Source: Sipunculus nudus
Taxonomy: Eukaryota; Annelida; Sipuncula; Golfingiida; Sipunculidae
NCBI GenBank assembly: GCA_026874595.1
Contig: CM049307.1
Coordinates: 50,783,370 to 50,847,369 of the forward strand
DNA: 64,000 nt
Direction of reading: 5' to 3'
The position numbers and the translations under genes are program-made. This document shows positions 1,863-57,343 of this stretch, piece after piece (the first letter of the stretch is position 1; every line of letters starts with the position of its first letter). Under the pieces are notes generated by a model. The model saw only the letters and a list, made by a program, of their open reading frames with translations, did no database searches and was not told where the DNA came from.

Positions 1863-1983
1863 CATCTGGTGTAGTGATGCCATCTTGCGTCCTCCACTTG
1901 AGTCTCTTCACTTCAGACACTTTAGCATTCGCACCAAGGACAAGTTCTTCTACTGAGCTGATCTTGAAGGTATTAAACAAATT
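1863..1983 (-). CDS. MAN2B1: MAN2B1 exon 25 (last exon found on this strand)
   Basis: 121 bp, residues 953-993. Acceptor TTATTTTCAG, donor CAGATG|GTATGT. Encodes [20 protein letters not shown] and [16 protein letters not shown], equivalent to DLFSTFTITRLQETTL. It ends in phase 1, so a terminal exon starting with two bases is needed. No such minus-strand exon is recognisable between 1862 and 1. Confidence 0.94.
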
Positions 1984-16900: not shown

Positions 16901-19900
16901 ACTTTGGAAACTCTATTACATTGTTTTTGTCGATGGATCAAGGATGGTGTCTTTCCGATTAAGCTGGACAGCAAGTTCCTCCATAAAAAATTTTTAAATG
17001 TCTATGCGTCCATGAGTCTTTTATAAGACAAAAGTGATATCTTATAAGACACATCATGGTCGGTCGTGCATGACGTTGCCTTGTCTGACATCACCAGCTG
17101 GAATGGCTTATTTATTTCTCAGTTCACCAGCATTGAACATGTTGCAAACATTGATGGCTGTCCTGTACATATTTTAGATTTTTTGTCTTATAAAAATTCA
17201 GTTCAATGTAACACTTTATTTTTCATTCAGATTGAAGGCTGAATCGCTCCTTCAACCACTGGGCCAGAAATGAACCTTTCAAAACACTACATAAAATAGC
17301 TTTCCAGTATAGCAAAAGGTATTCAGCAACTTAAGCCAAGGTAAGGGCACCCAGTGTTTACCTGCTTGCTGCTGAACAAAGAACGTTTTGTAGCCAAGTG
17401 GAGGCAGTGTAGCAGCAAACACCAGCTCTCCAGTAGCAATGCTGCCGTTATGAGCTGGAATGGCTTTGGTGGCTGCTGACAGTGGCACAATCTGTTAAAA
17501 AATAAAAATAAAACATCAAGGTCATGATCAGAGTGGATTTTAATATTAGCAGATAAATAAAGCTCTAGCAAAATGGACAACGTTTGTTATGAGGTAAAAC
17601 TGATTATACTGGATATCAAGGATGTCTATAATCAACAGGAATATTTATATTTGTAAGGTAATAAAAATAGCAAGTATTCAACTACAGTAAAAGTTAAAAC
17701 ATGTGTAATAAGATGACCTGAGGGACTTGTCAAAAGTGGTCTTAACTCCAAGGTAGTCCTATTATATAGTTATAACTTATGTGAATGCTTTAATTTGGTT
17801 AACTTAAGGTGGCCTTAAAAGTTAGATGGTCTTTTTAGATAGGTGGTCTTTCAGAAAGGCTCCACTAAAATATGAAATTAGACAAATAAAACAGCATCCT
17901 GATTAGTGTTTATGCAATGATAATTGAATATTTTCAGCAATAAAAACTAAATAATACTCAGACATGAATTTAATTTTCTTGTAATAACACCTGAAATAAA
18001 TAATGTTTGCATACTTAAGAAGTTGTAGTTCCTCTTATTTTTTACATAAACTTTACCTGAGATTTGACTGTGGTCATATCTGGTCCTGTCACCATGTAAT
18101 TAGATCCACTGACTGGCACCCTGACCCAGTTAGACACCATACGTCCGATGGGGTTGTACAAAGTCACTGTGAACTGTAACAAATTTCAAGCAAGACAATA
18201 ATAACGAGAATATCAGTATACAATAGAATATATCTAAACATTTCCACTTTAAAATAAATCTAATCTTACTGAAAATATAACAGAAGGAAACTAAATGTTG
18301 ACTGTATTCATGCTGTAGTCATCCAAGTTTTATAATGAATTAGCAATATTCAATGACAAATATTCACTAGGTCTCAAGGATCTGAAAGATCTTTATCAAA
18401 CATTTTGTGGGAAATTACAGCCTCCTTTATAAGTAAATTTAGCAGTCAATTGTAAAATAAGCTTCATGTTCAGTTAGCCATAAGCAAAATGACTATCTCC
18501 ATCTCTAACACATAACTTCATACTTACTGTCCAGATCAACTTATTTTTTACACAAATATAAGACGAAATTTCCCTCATATACTAAATCTAAGGTAATACT
18601 TATTTCAAATTAACAATTAATCACTTTTTTATTTAAAATACCTTAAAGTGAAGATTTAAAGAGTGCACAATCAGTTAAATGGTGAAAATATAGCCAAATA
18701 TACAATATATCTCATAAGAAATATGACAAGAGTATCCAAAGCTAATAATTTCTCGTTTATTTAAGCATATCTATGCAGTTACGTAATAAATGTTTAAAGC
18801 CATCTATGTGATTCTGGTAGTGGTTGACCTAAGAAATACTGACACATAATAATGATATAATCCTGTTTCAGAATGACACTTATCACTGACCATTATCAAC
18901 TTACCTGTTTATTTTGCTCAGACACAGGACAGTAGCTGACATTTGTCAACTGACAAAATCCCTGTTTTGGTGCTGGAGTGCTGGACTCCTGCATGACCTT
19001 ACCCATGGCTGAGTTCACCACATCCTTAAAAGGGATTACATCTCATTTGCATATTTAATAAACAGGTTTGATACTTACTGCCTGTTATGTATTATAATGA
19101 TAATAATAAAAGTGTTTTTTTTTTCTGAGGATAAACAGTTATACTCACAACTGCAACTTCTTTGGTAATCAGGTGTTTAATATTCAGAACCACAGTGATT
19201 TTACAATAAAAGATGCCCTGATTGTGATTTAGTACCATCTGGTGGGCATTGTGTTAACTAAAGTATCCTGGATGGCATAAATACTGACAATTTTACATGA
19301 TTATAGAGATTGTTCTAGACCTTTATAAAGGGTATTCTTTCTGCCCCTCCCTCTGAAAAGTTTGTGTTTTTCACATAAAATTCCATTACTTAAGATTCAT
19401 CCATCACCTATAAAAGAATACAAAAGTAATCTCTCAGTGTAAGGAAAACAGGCTCCATAACTTGAAAGACAGAATCATTTATGTGAAATACATTGCAACT
19501 GAGAAGATCTTCAAGTTAATTAAGGGTAGTATTCCTCAAATAATATATCCTAGGATTTCTCATAAACATCCAGTTAAGTTGGGTTTTTTACCTGACATTC
19601 TTGGATGCCAGCAGCTATTCTTTCAGCATAGTCATAAGCAACTGCCTGTTTCTCTGTTCCACTGTAAACAAAAAAAGGTATTGGTTTCAAGAGGCAACAC
19701 AAATGGAGGGTCATGGACACAAAAAATTACATATTTTTTTCATATTTTGGTTTTATATTTTATGATACAAATGAATTCACCAGGTCAGGTTGTATTAAAT
19801 TGGAAAATAACAGAAGAATAAAATATGGTTAGGGAAATGTAGTCAATAATATTTAATAATGTTGAGTTTATTTTTATCATTAGTTGTGTTGATTGGTAGA

Positions 19901-22900
19901 TCACATTGTTTATGTATCAAGTAATGGAACTTACTAGGCTAAAGTCTGTTATGATTGGCTCAGAGAAGATTCTAGAGAATCCAGGTGCTTCTATGAGGCT
20001 CTGTGGTAGTTTCCACCTGAACAGGTTCCACAACTCTTTGTTACTAGAACTTTGCGTATGACACATGTTTCGAGATGTACATCGGCACCAAGCGGGGTGT
20101 TGAGAGGACGATTATAGGTCCTGGAGTTTTATTTTTAGCCAAGCAGGGCATACAGGAATACTTTGTGTGTTGTATTTGGAGCCAGTTATGGCAGGCAAAA
20201 GCCAGAAAACTGTGTATTGTGAAAGAACTGTTTATAAGACAGAGACCTGTCAATGGTGAGGAAAACACAAACAAACTTGTTTTGTTGCATCACCTGGACT
20301 AGAAATTTCTGGACTATTGCGTGAAAGATCCCAAGAAATATATCTCCACAACATGTGTGGTGCAACATTTTACATTATATTGTGGTATATAATACACCAG
20401 TACATTTTTTAATGTCCATGAATTAGCACTGTGCTCCACATAGGGGTGTTTTATACAACATTTTTAAGTAATAACCTGTTCCTTAATTAAATCATTTTCA
20501 CAGATGCCTTTTTTTAATAAGGTAGTAAGCACTGGTCAGTGACTGAGACAAATTTGATCTTTTTAGGGACACACTGAAACCTGGGGCCTGTTGCAATAAT
20601 ATTTTACTGGACTTAAGCCCAGTTGGGGGCCTAAATACCATGATTACAATTGTGACATCATAATGGTTACCATGGTGACACACAGATGCCCCTGGGCTTA
20701 AGTCACCTACATGACTTAAGTCACCTTATTGCAACACACCCCAGGGCCCAAACTGAGAAACAAGGGCCCAATTACTGGTAAACACTTGAAGATAACATTT
20801 AGAAATAAAAGAAATGGTCATGAATCCTGTTTAATCATGATGACTGCATCTATCCATTCCCAATCAAATCAAAGTACAGGTGAAAAGATGTATTTTTAGT
20901 GTTAAACTCTTTTTAAGGGTCAATTTATCTAAATTTGGGATTGTCTAAACACCTGTTTCTGTAAACCACCTTGGGCCTGGCCATTTGTCAGACTATATAT
21001 TTTATAGTTAAAAATTCCCATATATTACTGAATTTTACAAATATTTCTGGTGTTGATGGTTAGAGTACTGTCCATTCCATTATAATCACTTGGAAAATGT
21101 GTAAAATTCGCAAATAAAACATGTTTGATAAGGCCGTTTTCATTGGGCCCAGGTTTATATGCCCTATACCTGCATATCCAAGGCATGGTCACAGAGAAGT
21201 TCTGTGACAAAATTCCAATCCGACCTTCATAAATTAATAAAATTAATTTAACTTACCTGACAGCATCATGATGCTGAGCCACACCCATAGCTCTCCCTGT
21301 AATAAGGCAATGTAAAAGGTGTTATTCTTCATATTTAATTTAACTTGCATCATCACAGTTATATGTTACTTAATAAAATTTTGGGATGGGAGTTTTACAT
21401 AGTTATTATAAGAGTTTATTAATTTGAAAAATAGGTTAAACTAAACTTATAATGTCTGAAATTGTAAAATATTAGTTGAATATACTATATTAATGTAACA
21501 TTATATTTAAAGGCACTCAATAATGCATATTACTGTTTATTGCACAAAATTCCTTGTTTGCTCTGAATAATAAATTTAAAGTAAATAATGAGAGGCATGC
21601 CATATACCTCTTGGAGGTTGACCTCCAACCCTTCTTCATCACTGGCACAAATTAAATATTTGTTTGTAAAGAATTGTACAGACATGTACCATATATTCTA
21701 TTACATACTTGTCAAAAAAGTTCAATTCAATTCAAACTTATTTAATGTCTCTCAAAATCAACTAATAACTGTTATACCAATTTAATTTGTTTTCCATATT
21801 AAGACTTTATTTATTGCATTTCATCCCTCTTATTTGAAAGATTCAAACCAGGTCCTTTTTTAAAGTTATCAAACTTAATCCAAACTCTGTTAGGCCACAC
21901 AATAAAATAGTTGTTCTATGCATTTGCTGTTCCTGTTTTTCATGGATCCATATGGTGCAAATAAGGACAATGTCGCTGGTTATGTTGCTAATTTGTCTTC
22001 TTGATTCAATTCCTGGAAGGAATTCTCAGAGGAATGGAAAATGGACTGGATTTTATGTTGAAATGATGTACCATTACAAGTATTGAATTACTTTATTTTT
22101 CCTGCAAAGCTTACAAAATTACACATACTGTATATCAAACAATAACTGAGTAATAAATTTGCTTGCTTGCAGCATATGTATTGTACTCAGAATCCAAAGA
22201 ACAACTAGAATACGGGTAGTCGACAAGCGACTACATGTATCCGCCTAAGTCAGAGTGGAACAGGTGAAGTGAGGCATGGATTGAGTGGCAATGGGAAAAG
22301 AGTGTTGCATATTAGCATGGATGTCTGCAGCCAAATTGTGTATGTAGGTTGCCCCCCCCCCCCCCCACCACAAAATCAAGAAAGCAGTCCAAGTTGTATA
22401 CATATGCAAAATTTAAGGCAGATAAGTCAAACCACTACATGTATATGAGTGATTTTAGCCCGTGGAAGACAAACAGATGAACGCTGAGCAAAAATGGTTG
22501 CAGTTGACGCCACCAGTTTTGCGAATGATAAAGAGCTATGTGAGAACTATACACATGCAAAACTTTGGTCCAATCGGTCAAAAGGTTCCCAAGAAATGAG
22601 CTTGGATGTCTGCTGCATAAACTAGGATGCAGGTGGCGCCACCTGTCATAAAAATCAAGAGAGCTGTCGAGGATGTATAAACCTGCAAAATTTTAGGCAG
22701 ATATGTCAAACCACTGCCGAGATATGAGTGATTTTATCCCATGGCAGACAAACAGACAGGAGCTGTGCAAAAATGGCTGCAGGTTGCGCCACCAGTTTTG
22801 CGTATGATGAAGAGCTATGTGAGATCTATACACATGCAAAATTTTGGCCCAATCGGTCAAACGGTTCCCGAGATATGAGCTTGGATGTCTGCAGCGTAAA

Positions 22901-24384
22901 CGTGAATGTAGGTGGTGCCACCTGTCATAAAATCAGAAAAGCTATCCAGGATGTTTACGCATGCCGAATTTCAGGTGAATTAGTCAAGTCACTGCACAGA
23001 TATGAGTGATTTTAACCCAAGACAGACGAACAGATGGACACTGTGCAAACATGGTTGCAGGTGGCGCCACCATTTTTTGTGTATGTTAAAAAGCTCTCCA
23101 AGGGCTACATTTGTGCAAAAAAATTTTCCTGATCGTTCAAATGGTTCCCGAGATATGAGCTTGGATGTCTGCAGCGTAAACATAAATGTAGGTGGCGCCA
23201 CCTGTCATAAAATCAGAAAAGCTATCCAGGATGTTTACACATGCCGAATTTCAGGTGAATTAGTCTAGTCACTGCAGAGATATGAGTGATTTTAACCCAA
23301 GACAGACCAACAGATGGACACTGTGCAAACATGGTTGCAGGTGGCGCCACCATTTTTTGTGTATGTTATAAAGCTCTCCAAGGGCTACATTTGTGCAAAA
23401 AAAATCCTGATCGGTCAAACGGTTCCCGAGATATGTGGGTTTATGTGTGGAAACAGACGCACAAACGGACGCAGAGCGCAGAGGAAAGGTCAGAGGTCAA
23501 AACAAAATCGGGGCGCAACAGTTCACATGTGACCCCAACATAATCCCGGGTTTCGTAAAATTCCGCCCAGCGGTTACGGAGGAGTTCTCCGGACACCTAC
23601 GCGGCGGCGGCAGCGGCGTGCAGCTGAAAATATAGTATCTGCAAAACTCTGTTTTGGCGGATACAATTAATTTTATGGTGGTTTGAGCAATATTTATCCA
23701 AATGCCAATGACATTCTCTTGTTGATCAAGTAGTTCCTGTATCCTGACAAATCTGTCTACTGGGACCAAGTTCTGTATACAGTAAATCCTCAAAATTATG
23801 ACCACCAACAGGACCTTGACATAGTGGTAACATTTTTGAGGTGGTCATCTAAGCAAGGTTTTGATATAAAGAGCAATAACCAATTGGAATCATTAAAACG
23901 TGGTTGTTATTTTGAGGTGGTCACTTAATTGAGGCAGTTGTTAAGCAAGGTTTTACTGTATAAACCAATATGATGATGAAAATAATAACATTTTATGCCC
24001 TTTTTGTTCAAATTTTATTTAACAACTGATCACTTACTGAGGACATCCATTTTGGCGACACTTCCGTCTGCAGGATCAAGTCTAGCAAGTACTCCAAGCT
24101 GCTTACACACCTATAAAATTAAATATTATAATTAAAGTACTAATAATGATTAACAGAATCTGAAGCAATAAAAAAATATAACCTGTAACCTGCTATCCAG
24201 CTGTTCAGGCATTATCACCACTTATAATTATAAAGCTATTTAATCAATATGTTATATCTTATTTTACAAATGAAATTTTTATTATTCCAGCCATAGCCAC
24301 AGAAGTGTGTTGTAAAGAAAAATTTAAGATCATAATAAAATCCACAAACTTAGAACCTCAAAAGTTTTAACAGCTGCTAAGTGG

Positions 24385-24435
<51 letters not shown>

Positions 24436-27400
24436 TATATTTATGCTGATATATATATATATATATTGTATAAAAATAGCTACCTGTAACAAAGATGATG
24501 GTGAATTATGCAGATAATTATTTGATCTGTAAGCTCATAGGAAAGAGTTAAAGAAACATCAATGCAATATGAATATTTTGTTTTATTTGGCTTTCTTGTA
24601 TTTTGCTCTAACATGCCATGTTAGTTTGCCAAATAGGCATGCAGTTTGCCATCAAATGCTTTTAAACATTTCTAATTAAAGAAAATGTAGGAATAGCAGA
24701 GAGAAGTACCACATATATAAAACTTGCATTTAAATAGCTAAAACGAAAACATTCTTTTCATATGTGAAGAGTTACCTGGAGAAAGTTGTTTGTTGATCTG
24801 ACGTAACCTTTGAGCGCTGGTCGGCTGGTGAAGTAACCGGTCCAGAAGGTATGACCACGTGAAGCGTAGGGGAAGAAATCATCACTCTTTGTGGTCAGAG
24901 TCAAGTTGGCCTTGTTTATAGCATAGGTGTAACAGGAAGGAGTAGAGTAGAAGATGTTCACCTTGCTACCCTTACTTTGCTATTTCAAAAAAAAAGAAAA
25001 AAGTTTTATATGAGTGCTCATGTTTTCTTTATACCTCTACCAGGTGGCAGCAGGTGTCATGTTTTACCTTCTTCCTTATTTGGTTGGTCTGTTAACAACT
25101 TTTTGAAAAATTTCTGATACAGATTCTGATAAAATTTGGTGGAAAGTTAGGCAAACATCCAAGGAACAACACTTCATTTTGGCTGACTGCATGTACAAAA
25201 TTGAAAGATCACTCATTGTTTGCACCAAATATCATGGAGAGACACACCTGGATTACAAGTGGGGTTATTTTAGTGGCCCCCTACATTATAATGACAAGTG
25301 AATATACAAAAGTTAGACTACGGTGCACCATGGAAACAAGGCATTTGGCTTATTTCTATAAAAGTTTAAAAAATTATCTTTATCCAATATGCATCTGCTT
25401 ATTGAATCGGTCCCTTTAAAACTGATGAAGGTTAGGAAGTTTCCACACAATGCTCCCATAACTCAAGGGCACTTTACTGGTTTTCAGACCCTTCCATCAT
25501 ACTCACCCTCTGGTTGACATACTTGATCAGCTTGTCAAGGTTGTTATAATTCTCGCGAGCATTTTCCCACTGGAAGTCTGATCCCATGGTCATCATGATA
25601 TGGCCTGATCTGTAGTGCTGGGCCTAAAATGAAAAGTCCATTAAACTTGAGCAGATAGACTTCAATCAGTTAGGGTATACCAAAGAGAGAAAATATTCTA
25701 TACTTGTTGCAAGTGTGCATTTTATGTTAAATTCATCAATTAAAAATTTGTAATATTTGGTCGCCTTAATTGGTTGAAACAAAAGTGTTCTTCTATTCTT
25801 GAAATGGTCTGTATATATAACACAAAGTTTTATTAATTTTTGGTGAAAGCTTTAACACATTTAATGGTTATTTTGAAGTAATCTAGAAGACTAAGGAAAG
25901 TCCATGTATGGATCCATCCATGTACATTTTATATTTTCAATTTTATCAATGCCCACCTGGTCTTGTGCGGCCTTGATGAAATCATCCACACGCTGGTCAA
26001 CATTGTAATCATGGAGACTGGGGTCATCCTATTGAAAAAGAGACTCAGGGGTCTTATAGCTCAACATGACCAAAGAATAAACAGAGATATATCTACACCA
26101 GAAAGAAATTAATCAATTACAGACCCTTATGTCAATCATTTAAGTTTATTAAAAGCTTTAACCACAAGAAATATGAGAAAAATGGTTGTTTATATATGTA
26201 AGAAAACTTATTTATAGCAATTTACTTAATATAACATGAAGGAGAAAATTAAACTTACATTGACCATATGATGCACTTTCAATGGATTTTTTTGCTAAAG
26301 AATTATTGAGTAAAACTGAGTTATTAAACCTAGCAAGTTTAACTAACTCATAACAAGAAGTGGATGCTAGTGTCATCCTGTAAAAATAAAAAAAAATTCT
26401 GCAAGGTTCATGAGAAGCTTCAAGCAGATAGTCACAGAAATAACAATATATATTTTACAATTACCAGTCAAAAGAATGACAAATCCCCAGGAAATAATTC
26501 TAAAATGTTACATATAATGTCCCAAATTAAAATTTTCAAATGAGCAAGTTTTAAGCAAAACCTAAATCTACATAAAGCAATCAATGTAAATGTTTATTGT
26601 CATATCTGTGTCTTGCTACTATTTGTAAAATGTGCATTTAGTCATATACACCAATACAGGTTGACTCTAGCATTCAATATAAATTGATACCAAAAATGCT
26701 GATGTAGCAATGATAATACCAGTTAGGTTTTTAAGCTTCAGTATTTTTTGACTGGGGCTTTGCACTGAATAAGCATAACAACTGGAAAGTTAGTTAATAT
26801 AGTTAATGTTAGCTCCAAGTTATGTCCCAGCTGTGAATGGAACACTGAATAATGCATGGTTGTTCTGTTTTTAGATCAAGCTTACCAACTCCATGTGAGA
26901 TATGTTAACATATAGTATTATTTGGTCATCTCCAGATTAATGTAACAGAACACATTGTATCATTATCATTTTTAAAAACTTCTTCTGATTTTAATGTGGT
27001 ATTCCAAATATTTATGTGGTATTTAGTGGTACCTCTTTCATTTTTGTTTAAGTTAAATCACCTGTTTTGTCAAAAATTTGATGCTTCTACACAACTGAAA
27101 TGTTCATTAACTGGCAATATGACTGTAACAACCAGACTGTAGATAAACTAACACCATAGTATTATGAACCACACTTGCAAATATTCTCTCTCTCTCCCTG
27201 TCTGTCTCTCCCTGTCTGTCTCTGTCTTTCTCTCTGTGTCTCTGCATCTTTCTCTGTCTCTCTATTCCTGTTTCTCTGTCTCTCTTTTTGTCTCTCTCTG
27301 TGTAACTTTAACTCATTCTCTAATCCTCTCCCTCACTCACTCCACAGTCTTTCTCTCTCCCATTTTCTCTCCTTATTTACTCTGTCATTTTTGTCATTCT

Positions 27401-30400
27401 GCCTTTCTAATACCCGCTTCTCCCTCTCTCTCTCTCACTCTCTCTATCTGCAACCCTCTTACTTGGTGTGTTCACTCGCTCACTGGAATTTACAGGTTTT
27501 AATATAGTCTGTGGTTTAGATGAGGTAAGTGCTTTAGGGTATACAGGTAGTGTACAGGTTTGGTGTTTGCAGGAGTTTACCATAATCGGAGGATCAGCAC
27601 ACAATATATCAAAGCAGAAAGAAGGAGGATTCTGGTACATATTGTAGTTGACACCGGTGAACAGGGATGCCTGCGGGCCTACAACAATAAACATGTCACA
27701 TTTGTTTTAGTTTAAATCTAATGAATAAAGGAGATGTGCTGGGTCTCAACCTACTGTGATGGAAAGCAAGAGTTGAACAACCGGAGAGAGCACTAAAATC
27801 AGTAATCATCCATGTCTTGTGAAAAATCTATATTGCATGAATTGAAACAGAATTACATTTCTATGATAGACTCATCTTTTCACCTCACTAAAACCAGAAA
27901 AAAAAGAACAAAAAATATGGAGCAAATCTATTGAGAGTCTGAATGTGTGATTTTTTAAATTTTTTCTTTCTTTAAATAAATTTTAAATTTGGCAAAGTTA
28001 ACTAGTTTAAAATCAGTCAATCAAACAAGCTCCTCATGTTGTGCAGTAAATAGAGATCAATGCAAACAGTGAACACATGAAGCAAAGTGTCAAAGCTGAT
28101 CTGTATTAGTGATTATCAAAAAGCATTAGATACTGTGGTCAGTTTAATCTTTCATGATTTACACTTTTTCAATGTTTAACAAGTATTTATTTTTTTTTGC
28201 CATTCCATGATAAAGTTATCAACACCTTATAGAATACTGTGTGATTCCTGTTGATGACTGATAAATTTTGCCTTCACCTCAGTGCAAATTTGAATATTCT
28301 AAAACACTGGGGTCGCTTCGGTATTCCTTGCTATAAGTGTCCTTAATGCCATATATAAAAATTTTGTGTTTTTTAACAAAAGAAGTATTTAATTTTGTAC
28401 TATGAACAGTAACTTTTATGAAACCTAAATTATATATTTGTCCTTGATATTTATGTCTGTAATGCCCTACAGATCCACAAACAATGTATAGTCAAGAAGA
28501 CTTAACATGGACTGTAATAACAGGGCATCCAGTCTTGCCATCCAATCCAAATTCATCAATTAGAATGTGTGCAAACAGCATAATACGTTCATCTTCAGCA
28601 GTGAAAACTATGGGATAGATCCAGTAGTGGAATACTATGGGATAGATCCAGCACTGAAAAACTATGTGATGTATCCAGCAGTGAAATATAATGGAACAGA
28701 TCCAAGCTAGAGACAGTTTTAAGAAAAAAGCAGGAAAGAAACAGGAGTGCTGGAATTTAATTACCACAACTGCATTGTCAAAGCAGTAGTAATGAGGGCA
28801 CCATTATGTATTGTAGTTCACACCAGAAAACATTAAATAGGAATTCCTTTGTGTCTGTTACAATAAACCAAGGTCTCAAAACTTATTTGAAAAGAATTTA
28901 ATGTGCAGTTTACTTATTATAAGTCACCAAGACCTAAATTTCTGACTTTTTTAAAAGAGGTACTGCATAAACCTTTTGGAAAACAAAACTGGAAGCATCT
29001 ACCTCTATCTACACTTATATCAGACTTATCACCATACATCATAATGGAAGGACAATGGATGGATATCATATCTTCTATAGCTGAGATAAAAACCTTCACT
29101 CCATTGTCTCATTACACTGAGAATGAGATACCAAATAACTACTAACAGAAATTGGTAAACCTGTTTCATAAGTGAGTGACCATACTCCAATAAAGAGAGT
29201 AAAATGTGACAAATTTGTTTATGTGGGAAAGGAAAATAAGAGGACTAGGAACTGAAGCAATAAGGTTCTGCTTAAGTGCTTTAAGACTGGTGTAGTCTGT
29301 ATGCTTTACTGCTGTTGTATGGCAAATACTATGGTTGGCTGCATATTAACGGGGATTTAATTTTCATGATTTTTACCTTTTAAGTATTTTGTGAGGATTC
29401 CATTTTCAAAATCTTACCAAAAAAATATATACATAAAGTATATCCATTATTATATTAATAATTAAACTAACTTGCAAAATCTTACCAATTTGACTAAAAA
29501 CTGTTAGAGAACATAGGGAATGGGAATACCTGTTCAATATTGGCAGATGATACAAAAGATCTGATTTTATTTATAATCTGAATATTTTTTTTGGCTACAT
29601 AAAATGTATTTCCTTTTTATAATATCATTCAGTTCGTTTAACTCTATGGATAAGGTACAAGTGATGCAAGCGAGGCTGTGGTATAAAGGACTGTTCACCT
29701 CTGAATGTGGGGCATATTATTCACAAAGTTTTTATTTTCTCAGTAATCTCCCTTTCACAAATTATGCAAATTTGAAACCCACATGCCAACCACAGTACCT
29801 CATGCCTTTGTTTGGCAGGTGCAGCCATCTGGTGGAAAATTATATGACTAAATTACTCTCATCATACAATCATGCCTAACTGATGAACTGAAATTCAGGT
29901 GGGTGAGTTGTTAATGTCAATTCTGTTTCATTCATGCATAACCTATAGCAGTAACAGATTTAAGCATGTTTTGCAAGTAAGAAAAATATTACCCATGCAA
30001 GTCAATCTTTTATTAACCATGCAAGATTCAGTGCTCCATGCATGCTGCCTGCGGTGAAAATGTTAAAGAATGGAAGCAAAATAGAGCTACATGTTCAAGC
30101 ACCCAATTATGAAAATGACTACATGAATTGTGCATTAAACATCTCAACATGTGATGTCACTTAATAATTTTCTGTAAATATAAAAATATCCATATTAGCT
30201 GCATTTGAATAATCAGATACTTGTATATTCTTTTGGGTATTTTGAGGCACTGTGGGACTCTTCCGAAAAGAAGATTTAATGTTCCATGGTTTTATATTTA
30301 ATGTTTCTAATATTTGAGGTTTCCTGTCTTCTGTGGGTACTCAAGTTTAGTTGTTATAAGTGTAGTCAGCACTCGAACTGGTCATGGTGATATCATGACT

Positions 30401-33400
30401 AGGTTGGATTTGCACCAGCTCCCTCAGCAACGCTCAAGAACTCTCCAGAGTACTTGAGTTGTTCTGTGAGATATAGACTTTAAATCTAATTATTACTAAT
30501 TGGTAGTGAGTCATTTATTTCTTCTGAAAGATTTACAAATATCAGGTCAAATTTTAAAAAGAACTATTTGTGAAAAGCTGTCTCTTTAAAGAATGAAGAT
30601 GCTTGTTTTTGTCTGAAGTTACTTAATTAATCCGTGTGTTAATAAACCTATATAACAATATCTCCAAATTTGATCCAGTTTATGTTCAATCAAACAGTTT
30701 AAGCCCCCATGACACAAAACTATCAGGCAACATTATTATTTGAATAAAGAGCTCGCATCATAAGCTGCAAAGGCTTTGCCGTATCTTTAAAGCTGTGTTT
30801 CCATGTGCATGTATATGGATATATGTGTTTAAAATCACTCCTTCAACTTTGTAACTGTGGTGTTTCCACATGTCCATCAGCATGTATATCTATGTTCATA
30901 TAAGTGTGAAAATAAACAAAGGATCAATGTTCATGCACAGGGCTGTGTGAACACCTGAGGATTCTTGGTAAAATGACATCTCTCCTGCATAATTCTTTTA
31001 AGACAGCAACATCCACATTACAACTGTATATTTCTGCAAGTGCATGCATATAAACACATACAAACACATGGAAACACAACTATTTTTTCATAAATGAACA
31101 AATATCTGCATATATATGTGCATATGGAAACACAGCTTAATATCACAAACATATTTTGTTGACAATCAAGAAATTAAAGAAGAATAATGAAGGAGACTGG
31201 TGGATCAAGTGACAGCTCATGCTGAAAACCATTAGGTTATCTTACACTACAGGAGAAATTTCGAAAATTTTTCAGAATCACTTTATGTACATTTATTTAG
31301 GATAAGTGTGGGTGAGTGATTAATAGACTATTTGGTAACGGGTTTGAGGAACATCATTATCATGTAATGAGGGTCACATATATTGAGGGCCTGGCATACC
31401 ATTATGGGAGGGTCAGAACAGCCTACATCAAAGCAAAACCCTCCAGGAGGGCCATATCCATTGTAGTTTACACCAGTGAACAGCGAGGCTTTCTCCCCTG
31501 TAATAGAAAAAGCAGCAGTGGGCATGCTGGATTTGGTACCCACTTGGAAAAGCAAGGATCTCATCAAATGTTACATATGTATATCAACATGCAGGTATGC
31601 AGGTACACTCTTCACACAGCAGTTATACACTGTACTCGTTCTAAATCTCCTTCGTTTAAACTGCTGCTTTATTAAGCAAGATTTTCCAGGTTTCACTACC
31701 AGGGCTTGCGTATAGAGCATAAAATATCTACAAGGGATATGTCAGTTTAGATGCACACAATCTGCAAAGCAAGGATTTCTCATCTGCAAGATAAAGTTGA
31801 ACATATAGGTATTCAATATCTGGAGAAAATGCTCCGGTAGAGATTTACTTGAAATATAAATGATTTACTGCAGATATACTGGTATTATCTGGAATATGGT
31901 TTGCAGGTATTTGAACACACTTCTGAAAAGCAAAGACAACTCATCTGTTATATAAATATGACTATCAGGGAATGCAGGTTTACGAGCATTATCTGGAGAA
32001 AACACAATAATGGAGATGTTTTTTCCAACAAAAGCAGAGTCTGGTTATAAATGCATAACAAGTGACCAAGGGGTCATGATACTCAGCTGACTAGGAAGAC
32101 ATACACAAAAGAAATTTTATCATCTGGAAGCCAAAGCTTGTTGGTTGTATTAAAATTCAGCTGAAGCATATAAGGTCAGAGGATATGGGTAACTGAGCTG
32201 TAATTTCAGGTTTCCAAGGAGATTTTTTATGGACCTCAAAGGATGTCAAGTTTGAGATTCTTGGTGCAATTGTAACAATATGTGCCCTGTTAACAGGCAC
32301 CCGCATCTTTCAAGGTCTCAAAAATAGAGAAAAATGCATAAACTTTTGAAAGGTGGTGCCACAAGTCTGCAGGAACTGATGAAAAACTCTATGATGAATA
32401 TGCATGCAAAGAATCATGGTGATCAATGCATTTGTTGTATTTGTATAAAATTTTCAATTATTCTGGGGGGGGGGGTACTTCTGAGCCCTATAGCTCAGAA
32501 GATATGGGTAACAGAGACCTAATTTTAGGTTTTAAAGGAGATTTTTCATAGACCTCCGTGGATATAAAGATAGGAGATTCTAGGTCCAATGGTTACAATT
32601 TGTGCCTTGTTAACGAACAGACAGACAGATGGACAAAGAGTGATTGCTATAGCTCAGATGACGTCCATTCAGGTGAGCTAAAAATTGATATGTTCAAGGC
32701 ATTGGAACATACTTCTTGAAAGCAAAGAATTCTCATCTGTAATAAAAAGATAAGCACACTGGAAAACTAGTCTGTTCCACCAGTAGGTGCCCATTGAATT
32801 TAGCTGGTTATTCTCTTATACTTAAATATTTTCACACAGTTTGAACCTGCATCTGATGTGGGACAAAAGGTTTAATATGAGATAAACCTTTCAGTATACA
32901 ATCAAACATTTATATTTTACAACCTTTTGGTTATTCAGATTGTTGGGGCCAAGTGACATGGTGTCTGACATGGGTTGCCAGCCTCACTTTGATGGTCATT
33001 TTTTTAGAATATTTATGGCACTAAACCACCAATCAGCAGCATTAAAATGTAGTTTTTGATCATGTGATCTGTGACCTTCACCTTCCTTCTATGGGGTTGA
33101 TACATAAAAAAGAAGACTGTTTTCTCATGTATTGACTTTCTCGCATTACTAATATATTTTGCAAGCAATTATAGTCTTTGCTTCATTCCAGTTAATTAGT
33201 CTTATGCCTCATTTCTTTACTGTAGCTTATTTTGTTTTAATTAATCTTTCAATATATGATAACACTGTCAATTTTGAATGGGCACTCCACTGTGGAATAG
33301 AGTATAGTTTCAGCACAAATTTCTTTGACCTGAAAAAGAACAACTATAGTCTTTCCATTAAAAATAATTTATTACTTCATACTTATTGCAAATTCATGAT

Positions 33401-36400
33401 TATGGTAGAAATTAAGATTTTTAATACATGAAATCATACACTAAAAAATAAGATATATGTACCAATAAAAGACAGTCATGACCATCACTTTACTGGTTCA
33501 AGATCTGATCTGGCTTGCAGAATTGATAAAAAAAAGACTTTATAGTTCATAAATAACATAAACATTTGATGCATACAGTTGCAAAGTGATCACTAGAAGC
33601 CTCCCCGCTGAGTGATAATGGGGAATCGGCCATGGAATGTACGACCTTGGGAACAAGGTCAAAAATAAATATCAGCTGCTATCTGTGACCTAGGATTAAA
33701 ATTGGGCCCAAATTTCAGCTTTTGAAAATCAGCCATATTGCAGAAAAAAACAGAAAATGGCAGAAGGAAAAAAAAAATTTGAAATTGTTTTGCAGTTTGA
33801 GGGGACCCAGGTAGGTCCACCCACAATAATTTTACTTTAACATAAATATTAATATAGACATAAAACTCCCCAACCCCTAATAAGCCTCCTCAACTGAAAG
33901 GGGGAGGCCTGAAAAGGATTTGGTAAAATATATAATTTCATAAAATAAAAACAATTTTTTTCTGGTATTAAACTGCCTAGGAAGGCTCCACTGCACATAA
34001 ATAATGAAAATACTGGATATGTAACACGAAAATATACAAAGGACAGGTAAAGCTGTCACTGGGTAGGCAACCCTAGGGTGTGTTTCATACCATATTAGGT
34101 TCATCAAAACAATGTAAATCAAAACAGAAGCCTGGAGGATGCTCATATCCATTATACAGAACTCCTGTTAACAAGTCCCCTTGGTCACCTGAAATCAGTG
34201 ATAGCTACTATCAGTGTGTACTTCATCTTATCTAAAATAAAATGTACTTGTCATATAGGAAATTGTCATATTTGACACTGGCAAGTGCAAAATTTATATG
34301 ACACCTCATGAAATACATCTCAGTTCATGAACCTAACTTTGTCTAACCCTGAGGTAGCTATGTTATTTGTGGACTTGCAAACAGTGTAGGACTCCAGTTG
34401 TGGACTTGTGTCCGGACTCCAGTCCACCTTTTTAATAACTCGGACTTGGACCTAGAAGTGAGGGTTCTGGACTTGGACTTGGTACTCGGACTCAGGGGCA
34501 AGGCCTGGAGATATCTGGTTGAGTCCACCTTAAGTCCAGTAGAAAAGAAACTCTGTCACACATTAAATAAAGTTTGTGCATACGGGTAAACTAATAATAG
34601 TATATTAGAAAAATAAGACTATAAATACCTAGTTTTAGCTCTGTTTTAGGGGCTAAATTGTAATTACACATTCAAGTGAAGGGGCTTGTAAACTAACATA
34701 TAATTTGCATGATTGTCTCAAATATCCTTTTTAAATTTATTTTAATAAGGAGATTTGTATAGGACTCAGACTCAGACATGGCCTAAAGTTCTAATTTACT
34801 CAGATTCTTAAAGGTGAATTCAGACTTGAAAAGCAAGGACTAGGACTTGGGACTCTAGTAGCCTGGACTCGGACTTGCACTCAGAGTCAGATGGTTGGAC
34901 TCGACTACATCACTGCTTGCAACTAACAGTTAAAAGGATGACCATGGCTCTTACTCACTGTTTTTTTTAAAGCAAGTTCAAATTGATAAATGATTCCCTA
35001 AGTTGTCTTCATTAAGCCAATATGAAGGGATATAAAGGCCCTGATGTTTTTTTCAATGGGCATAAAATGGCCAGTATCCTGAATCACTTAAAAATTAAAA
35101 CAATTTGCTGCTCTCCTAGCAGACAATCTGAAAACACAATCAGCTTAAGGATTCTGCATGTTACTTGATAATCCTTTACCAGTACTTTTTGAAGTATATA
35201 GCTATTTCTTACAGAATATATGAAGGAAGCTACTACTCTTAATATTAACCATAATGTTTTCATTACCATTAAACTTGTATATATAAAGATTGTCTTTAAA
35301 TCAGTCATTTTAATTAATTACATGTATTTGGTTGGTCATAAAGAATAAAAGATCAATTTACGAAGACCAACAGATGGAGCATGAATAAACAGTAAAAATG
35401 TTAAAGGGACCCTTTCAGTACTGACCATAATCATATTTTCATAAACATCATTTAAATCAACCTACATAATATCATCAGAACATTTTCACAGAATTTTACA
35501 TTCAATACTGGTATAACAGAAATACAAGAATGGTATACATACAAAAGAAATACCTGTATATGATTTCATAAATAACTCATATAAAAGTCATGCATATGTA
35601 AATAAATCTTACCCAGATTATCACTGCCCCTCCACATCATCTCCATGGTTTTATTATACAGTCTCCAGTCCTTGTCCTGATAGTCTAAACGACCAAAGAA
35701 CAGTCCATCAAATCCAAACTGGAAAAGAGAGAGGAATTTTTTATATTCTCTACACTTGAATTATTAATTGTACAATGTAATCACATAAAATAATATTTCA
35801 CACTTCCTTTAATCTGAAGCTTGGTCATAACACAAGAGAACGCCCCCCCCCCCCCCCCAAAAGGCACATTTGTTTGTGAGTGAAACATGACTGTTTGGCA
35901 CAGTCTTCCTATCAAGCCAGCAGAGCACTCACACTGGGTGGGGGCTGACTGTAAAAAATATCACTAGTTCAGCTGAGATTTGAACTCATGCTCTTCTGGC
36001 TTTGAGTCCTGTGCTCTACCATGGAAGCAAGTGTAATTATTCTGTGAACTGATACATTAATGAGTTTTCAAAAGGCAGTTTTACCTCCAGAAAAGGCCAT
36101 ATTTCAAGAAATAGTTGTGATTGTGTGGACAAACCTAAGATAATGATACAAAGATAAACAAGGGACCCATGGGTCACTGTGCTCAGCTGAATTTAACCTT
36201 GAAGGTAAAAATCTAAAATAATATCAAATGGAGATAAAGTGTAAGAGGAAGAGGTAATAAAGGCCATGGTTGGTTTATATAAATGTTTTGTATTGATGAG
36301 CAAGAAATTGTTGCAAATAATATTTTGTGACCTGACCATGTGTTTCCTAATGTTGAAACTGAAGCATGTGAGCAGTTTGAACAAATGATCTGTACTATTA

Positions 36401-39400
36401 CCATGATCATTAGTTGGCTTTTTGATTACCTGTTGACATTTCAGTAGTTTACACATTTGTTAAATTGAATCTATTTTTTTGTATAATATATACATATATA
36501 TGTATTTTTTTAATTTTATAAAATGTATACAGTTGAAATAAAACTAATTAACAACATACATACATGGCAAACAAAGCCTGATCTCCAATTCTGCAGAGGC
36601 AGGAAAATAATGAACAAATGTTTGTATTAGATCCTCGTTTTTTAATTACATCAATTTTTTTTATTATAAGTTTATATTTCTATACATTTCCAATATAACA
36701 TATATATCTGAATATAAAAGTTGATTCATACTTTTCAAATGTATCATCATAAATCTCAATCTTGTCAGATAACACCACATCATACATACAAATGTTTATT
36801 TATGTTTTACCACAAAAATATTTCTTTTAAATCTGTTAAACAATAAATATCTAAAAATAATACTTGATTTAGATGTCACAATTTTAAATTGTGTCTTTAT
36901 TTATCCATAATGTGCTTCATATTTATGAATTTAAGCATACTGTTTGGTTTAATTATATTTGTTAAAATCATTTAAAAAAAATTGATTTCTTTAAAAATGC
37001 TACATTAACACAACATGGCATCTTCTGGGTTACACCACTCTTCAAGGAAGGTTTTTGTATATTCGAGCGGAAACAGCATTACAATTAAGGAGATACAGTG
37101 AAAACAATAACAATTACTGCATAACACTTGGTGGGTTTTGGGGGGGATGGAGTGTGATATGAGAATAACTGTACACCTGTCACAGCAAGGGATCTCCCCC
37201 AGTGACTGTAACAAATCAGAAACCCTGGCATAGCTGACTTCCAGTGACCTGGAGTGGGACCCTGCATCTGTAATTTGTAATCAAAGCAAATGACTACAAT
37301 AGAGCCTCAAGAAAAAAATCAATAACTAGCCTAATTTTTAAGCTTTTATTTTCAAATTTCAGATTTAAACAGATTCAATACTTATGTTTACATGCTGTGA
37401 AAATTATTCATTGGTACTTACAGGAAAAAAAACGTGCCATTGTCAAAGCTGGGCAAAATTTAAGGTACTGATTTTATTTTTATGCTAATAACTTAAAAAA
37501 TTTACAAAATCTAGATCTAATTTTGGTTTAACAATTTAATCTTAATTTAACATAGTTATATACTTGGGAAAACAGACTCTAGTTTCAAAATTTTTCATGT
37601 TAAGTGAACAAATATTTTTCCTGATTTTTTACATAGTCCATTATGTTTTGGCCCACAACTTAAAGAAACTAGAACACAGGTAGTCAACAAGCCACAATGT
37701 GTATCCCCGCGCCAAAATCAGTGTGGAACGGGTGAAGTGAGACATGGATTGAGTGGCAAGGGGAAATAGAGTGAAGTGTGGCATATTAGCATGGATGTCT
37801 GCAGCCGAAATGTGTATGTAGGTTGTGCCACCTACCACAAAATCCAGAAAGCTGTCCAAGATGTATACATGTTCAAAACTTAAGGCAGATAAGTCAAACC
37901 ACTACATGTATATGAGTGCTTTTAGCCCTTGGCAGACAAACAGACAGAAGCTGTGCAAGCATGGTTGCAGGTGGTGCCACCATTCTTTGTGTATGTTATA
38001 AAGCCATCCACGGGCTACTTTGTACAAAATTTTTTTCCTGATCGGTGGAACCGTTCCCAAGATATGTGGGTTTATGTGTGGAAACAGACGCACATATGGA
38101 GGCTGGGCAGAGAGGAAAGGTCAGAGGTCAAAGCCAACAGGTTAGGCACCAGTTCACATGTGACCCGATAATTGGTGTAAGTTTCGGAAATATCCGTCCA
38201 GTAGTCTCAGAGGAGTTCTCCAGAAACGAACGCGGCGGCGGAACCCGGTCAAAAACATAGTATCCGCAAAACTTCGTTTTGGTGGATACAATTATACTTA
38301 ACAGACTTAATTTCTGGCATGTACATAGGAACTATATAGAAGAATATTTATGATACATATGAGGAAAAACAGATGAGTGGTTTTGATATTAGGCAGTTCT
38401 GAAGTGTGAAAATAGGTTTTTAATAAAAAATTGAGGTTTTTCCTTAATTTCTAGTAGGAAGGAAGTTGCAAAGACCCAGTTTTCGGCTTGGTAGGAGATC
38501 TTGGGAACATCTAACATTATGCCAAATTTTTTATTCCTAGGTCTTGCGGTTTCAAAACGTGCCACATCTACAGACGGATGGACGGACAGACGGACGATGG
38601 ACAATAGACCACGACTTTAGCTCAGATGACTTATAGTCAGCTGAGCTAAAAATACTAATATATGTGTCTAGAAAATGAGTTGTTTCCTTAATATTACTTG
38701 TTTAATATTATCATCAGAGGTTAGCCCAGATAGTACATGTTACACCAGGGTAGTCTGCTTACATAATGAAAACTATTGGGACACAAAGATTTCAGGTCAT
38801 TTATTCTTACACAGATCTGACATAATCTTTTAGGCATATATTTTCCAGCAAATTTCAAGATGCAATCATAAAGCCTGTTGAGATGTCAGATCTTAAATTT
38901 TATCTCTAACTCAACTAATATAAACTGCACAGACTCGATTTTGGGAGTAGGGAGTGTGAAAATGTTTTACAAAATCGAACAATTTTACACCTTTCAGTCA
39001 ACTTTGTCATATGTATAAAATTTTCATATCAACCTATGCATATCATTCATTAAGTGTAGCAAATTATGCATCAAATGAAAAATGTCTCTGACCTGTAAAA
39101 ATTGACTTGCAATTGGTAGGGCAGATATTGGCAGTATCATATCAGTCAATCAGAGTTCAAGGCACACTTGAGATTTTTATTGATTTCCATAGAGCTTTGA
39201 TTGTGCCAATCAGGTATTCATGCATAATGGCAAAACAATTAACCTTGACATATTTGTATTGATTATGCACAAATTAACTAACATTTACAACTAAAATAGA
39301 GAGCAAAGATAGAAATACAACTACTGTGTCATATGAAGTGATAACACTCTGCAAATTAACCAGCATCATCAATTAATTTTCTGTCTTATACAGGTCTATG

Positions 39401-42400
39401 AACAATGAATACTAGTTCAGGGGTATTAATTAACTGACACCAATATGGACACAACCATGAGCTTAACTGAATGTTATGTAAATTAACCCAGTCTCAAAGA
39501 GATACTTAACCAGATTTATGGTTAAGGTTTAATGATGTAAAGATGAAAGACCACATTTTCTGAGCAATCATTTCAGATCTGGGGAGATTAACTGGACCAC
39601 ACAGTATGCATCAAGTATCGAAGTGACAAACATCTTACAATAATTACTATGTGTAAAATTGAATTTTTTATGCTTAGATAAAACTAGGTACAGTGAAACC
39701 TAAACAATATGACCACCAATGGGAGCTTATTAAGTGGTCACATATCAGGTTGGTCTTCTAAGTGAAGTCCGATATAAAGAGCAAAAATAAATTGGGACTG
39801 TAAAATTGGTTGCTACCCCTAGGTGGGCTTTGGGGGAGACTTTACTGTATACACAATTTTGATCTTTTGATAAATATTCTGCCAATAATTCAGTTATATA
39901 TATATATATATATATAGTGGGTATTCTAATCAGAACCTCCGACGTATTATTTTCTTTTATTCAAACTTGACTTGAGACAGACTTGGCCTAATTTCGCAAG
40001 TCCTGACCTTTAAGTCCAAGTACAGGTCAAGTATAGGACCAGAGTCAATTTACGAGTCTGAGTCTAAAAAAAAAGGACTTGAGTCCTAGATTACTACATT
40101 AGAGTATGCTTACTTGTGCAAACAATGAAGCTTGCTCCCTTGAATGACCAAAAGGATCTATCTGCCAGCCAATCCTAGGCCTGCCGCATTCACCAAAGTT
40201 CTCTTTCAGAAACATGAATCCTCGAGTATGCTGGTCAATGATGGCATTATAATGAGTGGCCGCCTCGTCGTTCATACACCATCCTCCCAGGATGAACTCA
40301 AGTCGACCTGTATAATACAAGCCATTTATTTTATATACTTTTTCTTTTTTAAAACTAAATGTTATTTAGTTGTAGAGTATGAGCCAAAAGGGATCAACCC
40401 TATAGTCAAGAATCTATTAATCTTTACACATTATATTAGTAACCATAGGAAACATACAAAACAATACCCTATACTAGTTTATACATGTTACAACATCTGT
40501 TCATGATATTCCAAACTAAGGAACCATTCCAAACGTGTTCTATAACATTTGAGAGAGATATATTTTTGTATGTATAACTGTTTGATATAAATTGTGTAGA
40601 AATATAAATACTGGTATAATTTTCAGTCTCTTAAAGTGCTAATTAGAAATTTATCAATTATGATTGGTAATTTTCATGATAAAGATGTTATACTGGTAAT
40701 ACAGTGATAATTATGTCAGATAACCTTCTTTCACCAACTGCTTCACATCCTGACGAGTTTTCTCATCTTGCTGGTTCCACCAACGATAGAAAAATGCTAT
40801 TTCTACATAGATGAAGCGACGATTAGGATCCAGTAACAACTGCTGGATCACACTGTCAAGGATGTACTGGACAGCGGCATGCTGGATCTCATTGTGAGCT
40901 GGATTATATGTAGAAAGACTTGAATAAGACAACATAATAAAAAAATCTCAGGTCTAAGATTATGATCATATGCAAAACCCTTTTAATGTTTTTGTCTTTT
41001 TGCAGGCATTTACCGAACCCCACAGATCCTAACAACTGAACATTCATTGAAACAGCAACTGATAATTTTATTCTGAAGAGTCCAGTCAAAGAATACTGGG
41101 CTGCCCTTTTGTACGTGATGTTTCCAAATTTGCATTATTCACAAAAGTAAAATTATTGTGAAAATTAAAATTTTGTGTATAAGAAGCATCATCATTTAAT
41201 GCAAGATGAAAGGAAAAAGAATAAAGTTGTAAATAACAACAGATCTTGCATGTTACTTGTTACCAAAGATTGGTGTTATAAATTATCTGGTAAAACTGAA
41301 CAATACTTTCTACTTGTTCAACATTTAGTCAGGTCCCCTCCTACTGTCACAAAGTTATGCACACATTATCCAATGAAATTAAATTATAAAACAATGGAAA
41401 TACATAATGTATCTGTTACTGTATCATGCGACAGTGATATGGAACCCTAATGAAACAATGAAAAATTGAAATTTGTGACAAGATATTTTAACCTCCCAAA
41501 TATGAAGCTAACAACAGTATATATGGGAATAATTACTGTTTACACTGAAACATTGGGTGTTTATGAATATCTTTGTTCACTGCAGTAATAGCATTCACCT
41601 ATCATTGAACCCATCAAACCTTTAAAAGAAATAATCATTATAAGCTTCCTTGTACCCTTAATCGGTTTGGGATATTACTGTGAAGCAAAAGATGTACTTC
41701 TGTAGACAAATTTGAGACATGTTTTTACTTCTGCAGATAACTTTGAGACACATTTGTGCTTCTATAGATAACTTTGAGACATTTGAGGAAACTCACTCAC
41801 CTCCATAGTAATACTGATCCACAGTCTTCAACCAGCCAACATCATCGTGAGTGTGGGGAACAAGGTGGACATTCAGCATCCCCTCCTTACCCAAATTACA
41901 GCTCTGAAAATAATAAATTGAGATGGAAATAAAGTGAATTTTGCCCAGGGTTGTAGATGCTGAACGTGTGACTACAGGGGCGGATCCAGGAGTTAGGATA
42001 AAAATTATAATATTTTTCGACATTTGTGAAATTGATAAAGTATGCAGGATTTTTCATGAAGGATAATACAACAATCTTATAAGTAACCTCATTTTTATTT
42101 ACTTAAAGATGATAAACACTTGATATCATTAAGAATTTTCAGTATTATCAGTGTAATTAAGGATCTACATTACTGGCATTAGAAATTTTAGAACATTATC
42201 TATGTATCTATTAAACCATTTGTTTGGTACTTTAACAAGTGTACATATTAACTATCAGATCATTGAGAGCAAATCAATATCACATGATAAACAACAATGG
42301 TCAATGATCAATATTTTATATGGTTAGGTGTGTGTCCTTGAACCAAATTTGTGATACATTATCTGTGCACTAAAAGTGTGTTCATAGTAAAGAAGTCCTA

Positions 42401-51199: not shown

Positions 51200-51774
51200 T
51201 AAACATCACACGTCTAATATTCTTGGTAAAAGAGTCCCGGTAGCAATAATAACAGTTCTTTAATTGAATTTAAATCTTTGTGTTCAAGGTTCACCGTCGA
51301 ATCCTCGTTGATGATGGATTCGCTCTTTATGAGTCCCGAATGAAAAAGGTATATCTGGCAAAGTATTAATTCTGAGAGGTAAGCTGTTGATCCCTGTAAC
51401 CTTAAAGACCTAATGTATGTCATATGTAAATATACATGTAATTCTCTGAAAAAAACTGCAAACCTGAAAGACCACTTCAGTTATCTTTTGTTATGATACA
51501 TGCAGTTTATACATGACCATTCTGATTTGAGCCAGATTCAATTGCAAAAATATACCATATGAATCAGTGCCCCTGGGTGACATGGCCGATGTACTTATTT
51601 AATACAGTGAGCTCATGTCAACATGCCCCAGAATAAAATTCCATAAAATTCATGTGACTTCATTGTTCACAAGGACAAAACCCCCGTTATGAAAGCAACA
51701 AGCATTACTTTTCAAGTACATGTGTGACATGAATATGAACAATGCAAGTTCTGTACATTATGAACCTGAGTATA

Positions 51775-53611: not shown

Positions 53612-53683
53612 TCCCTGTTAGCTCAGTGGTAGAGCAGACGACCGGCAATCGGAGGGTCATGGGTTCGATTCCCATACGGGGTG
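53612..53683 (+). mobile_element. tRNA-derived SINE head
   Basis: A 72-base cloverleaf-like sequence: A box TAGCTCAGTGG, B box GGTTCGATTCC, a paired T stem ATGGG/CCCAT and a six-pair acceptor stem. The anticodon stem has two mismatches and position 33 is C rather than T (apparent anticodon GGC), so it is unlikely to be a working tRNA gene. The tail continues as CCGACTTTTTCTGTGTATTC. Confidence 0.75.
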
Positions 53684-53755: not shown

Positions 53756-54402
53756 TGCTGTTGGTACTTTTCTTTTAATTTCCGGACTCTTTTCTACATC
53801 TTGCCCTTGGAACCAATGCAAAGGTGTCTGATATAAACAACTCCAGTGGAGGTCACAAGATGGCAGCACCTCACCTGCCGGTATGTGCCGCTTGTCAATC
53901 CTTCTGGAACAAATTTTTTTCTACTTACAGGTTTTGCAAATGTACTGTTCAAGCAGTACCATGATTAAATGCTTTAAGGCCTGCAAAATTTTCTGTTTGT
54001 TAATTAATAATAATAAACGACACATTTATTAATATGCCTATCATAGCCCAATCATTATTCATCTATCTCCAATGCATATTTTGAGTTTTATTTGAGGTAC
54101 AACATATTGAGGTTTGATGTTATTATTTTTTAGAAAAGTAAATGATTTTAAAGGTAATGGCTCATAATGATATTTTCGGAAGTTGTGATAATTGTCTCCC
54201 GCTTCCTCGGAATGGGGGACTGATTTTGTTTTGTTAGTCTGTCTGTCGACGCTTTCGTTTACGTGCGATAACTTTCCTAAATATTATACGATTTCATTCA
54301 AATTTGGGTCACTGAATGCTCTCATGCATACCTAGGTTAGGAATGGTTTTTGAGTGTCTGTCTGAAAATTTATTCTCACCATTCTTTCTTCCAAAACCAA
54401 AA

Positions 54403-57109: not shown

Positions 57110-57343
57110 ATTTTCAGATATCCATATTATTTACAGATATGTCCATGATAATATTTACAGATATTTACAGATGTCCACCATGTAGATATTTACATTTGCA
57201 GATACATCCACAACGATATTACAGCTATGTCCACAATGATGTTTTTAGATATGCCCATAATGATATTTACAGCTATGTCCACAATGATATTTACAGGTAC
57301 AACCATACTGATAATTAAGATGTGTCCATAATGATATTTACAG
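57110..57343. repeat. Minisatellite abutting the terminal-exon acceptor
   Basis: About eight imperfect units of 27-31 bp around ATGATATTTACAGCTATGTC and CACA. The unit contains TATTTACAG, and the final copy forms the 3' splice site of the LAMAN-like terminal exon. Confidence 0.75.

Follow-up and report, generated by a model that had tools for sequence, protein, structure and literature searches.

Does a single lysosomal alpha-mannosidase gene carry three interchangeable versions of one exon, of which each messenger RNA (mRNA) takes only one? The question is raised by a stretch of 64,000 nucleotides from Sipunculus nudus (1.43-Gb assembly GCA_026874595.1, contig CM049307.1, here C2:50783370-50847369), called the window below. 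In this window a gene for a lysosomal alpha-mannosidase (LAMAN) of glycoside hydrolase family 38 (GH38) holds three 98-bp copies of its sixth exon, designated 6a, 6b and 6c. The copies are very likely three old, preserved and constrained alternative versions of one LAMAN exon, and we think it probable that they form a tandem-duplicated cluster of mutually exclusive exons.

Three copies of exon 6 in a LAMAN gene

The rebuilt gene model (Table 1) has GT-AG sites throughout and reads through 992 codons without a stop with each exon 6 copy in turn. A probable last (26th) exon lies about 1.1 kb past the low end of the window, at about C2:50782199-50782288; its end reads ...TLEPMQIRTFQVTVV-stop. The Pfam domains PF01074, PF09261, PF07748, PF17677 and PF21260, which represent the N-terminal, middle and C-terminal parts of GH38 enzymes and the LAMAN-type domain, were all above the cut-off in the 6c isoform (992 aa). 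The best match of the protein among solved structures in phmmer was jack bean alpha-mannosidase (467 bits); chain A of bovine LAMAN 1o7d (298 residues) scored 409 bits (E 2.3e-121) and Golgi mannosidase II 196 bits. By these matches the gene encodes a lysosomal alpha-mannosidase of GH38 that is nearer to LAMAN than to Golgi mannosidase II. The motif HTHDD is present from residue 71 and QHHD with its first His at 443, and D197 and D319 stand where an initial annotation of the window had placed them. We take D197 to be the catalytic nucleophile, D319 the acid/base and the histidines of HTHDD and QHHD metal-binding residues.

Table 1. Positions of the LAMAN gene, its exon 6 copies and their flanking exons in the window
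Feature	Position	Strand	Remark
LAMAN/MAN2B1-like GH38 gene	1863..43987	minus	rebuilt gene model, 25 exons within the window
Exon 5, common upstream exon	35613..35718	minus	ends in phase 1
Exon 6a, 98 bp	34091..34188	minus	least family-like live copy
Exon 6b, 98 bp	31400..31497	minus	copy closest to the exon 6 of relatives
Exon 6 relic (dead fourth copy)	~28765..28854	minus	repeat search; nhmmer with exon-6 profile, E 2.7e-8; between 6b and 6c
Exon 6c, 98 bp	27581..27678	minus	closest to the single exon 6 found in the neighbouring gene
Exon 7, common downstream exon	25957..26028	minus	starts in phase 0

The three copies follow one another on the minus strand, with exon 5 before them and exon 7 after them. 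Each runs from phase 1 to phase 0, finishes the Gly codon begun by the last base of exon 5, and has AG before it and GT after it; the gene model bears out the coordinates, the length of 98 bp, the shared split codon and the phase 0 end that the initial annotation had assigned. Amino-acid identity is 19/33 between 6a and 6b, 19/33 between 6a and 6c, and 23/33 between 6b and 6c, in agreement with the annotated range of 19-23, and the Cys268/Cys273 pair noted at the same time is present in all copies. An exon-6 profile search with nhmmer, in which the copies themselves are part of the profile, gave E values of 7.1e-33, 9e-33 and 1.7e-30 for the three, by which chance similarity is ruled out. When the 6b isoform was searched with tblastn (E up to 10), no other duplicated exons came up in the window gene; apart from copies of exon 6 and the pseudogene pieces on the plus strand described at the end, there were two chance-level matches only (E 1.2 and 2.8).

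Only the splice forms with a single copy give the full protein, as had been claimed. When exon 6 is skipped, TGA is the first codon after exon 5. Joining 6a to 6b, or all three copies together, leads to a stop at codon 42 after exon 5, which is the tenth codon of the 6b stretch, and the joins 6a+6c and 6b+6c stop at codon 99 after exon 5. All five ways of taking none, two or three of the copies in the given order thus end in a premature stop. This frame rule gives no independent evidence of function, because duplication of any 98-bp exon yields it automatically.

Splice sites were scored with matrices made from 29 acceptors and 32 donors of the window gene and a neighbouring LAMAN gene. The acceptors of 6a, 6b and 6c reach 9.0, 13.8 and 8.5 bits against a leave-one-out median of 7.4 (22, 29 and 22 of the 29 score lower). 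The donors reach 5.6, 5.4 and 6.3 bits against a median of 9.0 (no more than 5, 5 and 7 of the 32 score lower), and two of the three lie just under 5.8 bits, the 95th percentile of 526 GT in the stretch. The initial annotation had called the splice sites good on both sides; this holds for the acceptors, but the donors are on the weak side.

Purifying selection on the live copies and a dead fourth copy

The live copies have been under purifying selection averaged over their history, weakest for 6a; a very recent loss would escape tests of this kind. By the NG86 method, nonsynonymous (dN) and synonymous (dS) divergence were 0.35 and 2.38 between 6a and 6b and 0.29 and 1.54 between 6b and 6c; between 6a and 6c dN was 0.40 and dS was saturated. 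Third codon positions account for 19 of the 37 differences between 6a and 6b, 18 of 40 between 6a and 6c, and 16 of 33 between 6b and 6c. Neutral substitution to equal nucleotide distance, simulated with uniform rates and no indels, left a mean identity of 10.3 to 13.5 of 33 residues, as compared with the observed 19, 19 and 23. In 20,000 runs in each direction, the observed identity without a stop was matched in 1 and 3 runs for 6a-6b, in 0 and 0 for 6a-6c, and in 0 and 0 for 6b-6c.

The copies were also scored against a profile of exon 6 from homologues, made from 82 of 120 matches; the remaining 38, which did not have exactly 33 aa or could not be aligned, were left out. The homologues have a median of 99.7 bits. 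The score of 6b was 106.8 bits (69 of the 82 homologues lower), that of 6c 92.1 (26 of 82) and that of 6a 70.7 (5 of 82). After 16 random changes 6b falls to a median of 27 bits with a 95th percentile of 52, and after 37 random changes to a median of -55, the highest of 5,000 runs being 16. Change at first and second codon positions was 0.24 for 6a, 0.11 for 6b and 0.21 for 6c. The copies differ from one another (19-23/33 identical) about as much as exon 6 differs from one animal's LAMAN to another's (mean 19.6 identical among the 82 homologues). Drift of the copies without constraint since their origin is ruled out by dN far below dS, by the neutral simulations and by the profile scores.

The inventory of three copies in the initial annotation is correct for live copies but overlooked a dead fourth one (Table 1). 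This relic measures 90 nt from its AG to its GT; aligned to 6c, it shows 7 additional bases and lacks 15. Its LAMAN-like frame is broken by a frameshift and a stop, all frames shown contain stops, and the second cysteine is lost. Its acceptor scores 7.2 bits and its donor 5.3 bits; the relic has lost its reading frame, not its splice sites. Because these sites score nearly as well, a splice-site score alone cannot tell a live copy from a dead one. The repeat search also listed three short repeats (31761-31803, 31922-31964 and 32714-32756) that resemble the acceptor and the first ~20 bases of 6b. They were considered as possible further exon 6 relics, but none of them is listed by the exon-6 profile at E up to 100.

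The relic and the frame rule might together suggest that the extra copies are regulatory, with double joins or inclusion of the relic making stops and cutting LAMAN output through nonsense-mediated decay. The five stop-producing combinations would serve such a purpose, and so would the relic with its usable-looking splice sites and its stops. A regulatory poison exon, however, has no need of a conserved amino-acid sequence, whereas LAMAN residues are kept in all three live copies, and we consider this role very improbable.

Age of the copies and the probable choice among them

A second LAMAN gene, also missed by the initial annotation, lies outside the window at about C2:50740433-50765900 on the plus strand, tail to tail with the window gene. 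In the exons other than 6, ungapped blocks totalling 604 codons give 84% amino-acid identity between the two genes, with dN 0.09 and dS 0.87. The search of the neighbour yielded a single exon 6, which is of the 6c type: it agrees with 6c in 26/33 residues and 77/99 nucleotides (dN 0.14, dS 1.08), with 6b in 24/33 residues (dN 0.27) and with 6a in 19/33 (dN 0.37). These distances suggest that the 6a, 6b and 6c lines split before the gene duplication and that the neighbour retained the 6c type only. This order is likely and unproven, because only 33 codons are available and silent sites are saturated.

Among relatives, 6b is the copy nearest to their exon 6 (27/33 to protein P0032 and 26/33 to P0001). 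Since the neighbour has the 6c type and the proteins of relatives have 6b-like exons, each of these two types serves as the sole exon 6 elsewhere. In the sea slug Elysia marginata, one annotated alpha-mannosidase (P0223) contains a pair of exon-6-like stretches separated by 42 residues. Exon 6 may have been duplicated independently there, or the gene model may be a fused one. A mosquito protein (P0044) has two such stretches far apart and seems to be a fused gene model.

The initial annotation had assumed a bivalve host, which was not supported. In a tree of 65 LAMAN rows, with the window row taken without exon 6, the window falls outside the 42 rows in which every named member is a mollusc. 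It belongs to a 12-row group with support 99 whose sole named member is the annelid Platynereis; the annelid Owenia is outside it. A tree of 32 rows gives the corresponding group of 9 rows a support of 96 and pairs Owenia with the brachiopod Lingula. A molluscan placement of the window LAMAN was, on the other hand, not rejected by the approximately unbiased (AU) test on the 32-row tree (p 0.149). The window LAMAN appears to be lophotrochozoan, with an annelid source more likely than a molluscan one.

With a second LAMAN gene nearby and probable LAMAN pseudogene pieces in the window, copies from other LAMAN genes or haplotypes might have been misplaced into one intron by assembly or annotation. 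Such an artefact is hardly credible: the locus lies on a single 98-Mb contig, the window is free of N, the exon 6 of the neighbour differs from the copies, and these are arranged in order along a single strand between the flanking exons 5 and 7.

A more serious alternative is the birth and death of exon copies, in which 6b and perhaps 6c are used, 6a is dying like the relic, and there is no real three-way choice. The dead copy sits between 6b and 6c, the neighbouring gene shows only one exon 6, and 6a resembles the family least; at the first two codon positions it has changed about twice as fast as 6b (though 6c has changed nearly as fast as 6a). However, 6a is still open and keeps both splice dinucleotides, Tyr261, both cysteines and, by exon position, Pro18, Asp24 and Pro31. 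Its 70.7 bits also exceed the 95th percentile of 52 reached after 16 random changes. We regard the birth-and-death account as unlikely.

Several further observations weigh against mutually exclusive use of three working copies. The donors of all three are weaker than the median. In 6a, the changes F7->L, P17->H and I32->N fall at positions nearly invariant elsewhere, and only 5/82 homologues score lower. The relic shows that copies at this locus can die while their splice sites still look usable. No full-length proteins with a 6a-like region were found (2 candidates, none scored). No common docking or selector RNA pairing was detected with 300-base flanks beyond that in shuffles, of which 9/15 upstream and 7/15 downstream were as good. 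In protein searches that took proteins 0.55 to 1.75 times the size of the queries (992 and 249 residues), no transcript product of the host species was present among the best 120 of 4538 and the best 120 of 1085 matches; identity did not exceed 63% for the 992-residue query or 74% (over 45% of the query) for the 249-residue one. Moreover, a GT is missing in the neighbouring gene where exon 7 should end, and its bases read, by eye, QHHSGGVSG where QHHDAVSG is expected. The neighbour may be an altered gene, a failing one or an early pseudogene, which would weaken it as a witness for the 6c type.

Mutually exclusive use of the copies nevertheless seems to us the probable reading, and its steps may be outlined as follows. 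Tandem duplication of LAMAN exon 6 would have produced three live copies and one dead copy, and each mature mRNA would contain one live copy. Wrong combinations would be removed by nonsense-mediated decay or would give dead protein. The introns around the copies are 1.4 to 3.7 kb long and all their sites are GT-AG; introns of that length make steric blocking unlikely. Our best guess is that exclusion would come from the frame-based decay of wrong products together with factors that choose the copy. Speculatively, the choice might depend on tissue or condition.

Exon 6 in the substrate-contact region and other features of the locus

Exon 6 was placed on solved structures by phmmer alignments, and residues were numbered with offsets (bovine chain +49, Drosophila chain +30) chosen to fit the residue letters given in a 2026 review (PMC13204073). 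It aligns to the stretch of bovine LAMAN (1o7d) with Tyr261, Cys268, Leu272 and Cys273; this enzyme and human MAN2B1 are of the same family as the window gene. It also aligns to the stretch of Drosophila Golgi alpha-mannosidase II (1hty) with Tyr267, Tyr269, His273, Pro298 and Trp299. The Golgi enzyme is a GH38 relative of another subfamily, in which the equivalent of exon 6 holds catalytic and anchor residues. According to PMC13204073, Tyr269 is a catalytic-site contact and Tyr267, His273, Pro298 and Trp299 make up the anchor site, LAMAN Leu272 is among the residues that occupy the place of the holding-site arginine of the Golgi enzyme, and lysosomal enzymes are described there as being without a defined anchor site. 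The alignments and this description support the view, put forward in the initial annotation in terms of the substrate groove, that the exon 6 swap falls in the substrate-contact region.

Within this region Tyr261, Cys268 and Cys273 are identical in the three copies. Residue 272 is His in 6a, Gly in 6b and Leu in 6c, and the residues right after Tyr261 are Glu-His-Pro, Gly-Pro-Pro and Gln-Asn-Pro, respectively. The loop that follows Tyr261 and the surroundings of the Cys268-Cys273 pair would thus set the three forms of the enzyme apart. The likely effect would be an altered hold on branched or GlcNAc-bearing glycans, because the region corresponds to the anchor site of Golgi mannosidase II. The 6a form, with His272 and Glu-His after Tyr261, may have gained a contact absent from ordinary LAMANs, in which case splicing, instead of separate genes, might set the substrate range or the pH optimum. 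As a point against the different glycan preference or pH behaviour that the initial annotation had proposed, most of the differences between copies are at positions that vary across LAMANs generally; the exceptions are the three odd changes of 6a, N11 (shared by 6b and 6c) and, in 6c alone, N17 and S20. Altered specificity is therefore no more than plausible. That the gene makes three enzymes with different glycan-holding pockets, through the swap of an exon with Tyr261 and the anchor and holding sites, is conceivable, and we hold it as a tentative and rather doubtful proposal.

Exon swaps of a comparable kind have been described in other enzymes. In coq-2 of C. elegans, parasitic helminths, annelids and molluscs, alternative internal exons of an enzyme are used singly and remodel a part beside the substrate; that report describes an altered substrate choice, with transcripts and function shown experimentally (PMC7434440). 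However, coq-2 encodes a polyprenyltransferase and has two copies rather than three. Exon 10 of the oyster alternative oxidase is another tandem-duplicated enzyme exon that gives isoforms of equal size, with copies 63.5-65.9% alike (PMC5589949). There, in contrast, two terminal exons with their own stop codons are joined by alternative 3' splicing, and expression and stress response were measured. Mutually exclusive exons are a known kind of mechanism. In the literature searched, which covers subscription journals thinly, no title or abstract dealt with alternative or mutually exclusive exons in an alpha-mannosidase; this is weak evidence that such a case is without an earlier report.

If all three copies are used, splicing would retune the substrate pocket of a lysosomal glycosidase. 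The region by which lysosomal and Golgi mannosidases differ in specificity would then occur at this locus in three natural versions, and a glycosidase would join coq-2 among enzymes in which mutually exclusive exons exchange the surroundings of the active site. This has a practical side, as inhibitors of Golgi mannosidase II should spare the lysosomal enzyme according to PMC13204073. In addition, the dead copy and the neighbouring gene make part of the history of the cluster readable.

Other features of the locus were recorded. Upstream of the intact gene, three plus-strand pieces (51289-51383, 53788-53876 and 57340-57429) with weak matches are probably a degraded C-terminal part of a LAMAN gene. 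They resemble exon 22, exon 25 and the last exon, and the first two are frameshifted. A tRNA match (53612-53683, plus strand, 48.5 bits) stands immediately before one of these probable pseudogene pieces. In the window gene itself, the intron that separates exons 23 and 24 carries five repeats of a 180-bp unit (4125-5030), and a 41-bp unit recurs about 13 times beside exon 21 (7464-8007). Tandem arrays of a unit of about 279 bp occupy 6476-7163, 8953-9929, 22372-23435 and 60020-60787, and sit inside an apparent dispersed repeat with several occurrences in the window. On another contig, a GH38-like match (C4:42290177-42290362, minus strand, 42% identity, E 3.3e-8) lies within an open frame of 1057 residues, which is perhaps an intronless mannosidase gene or a retrocopy.

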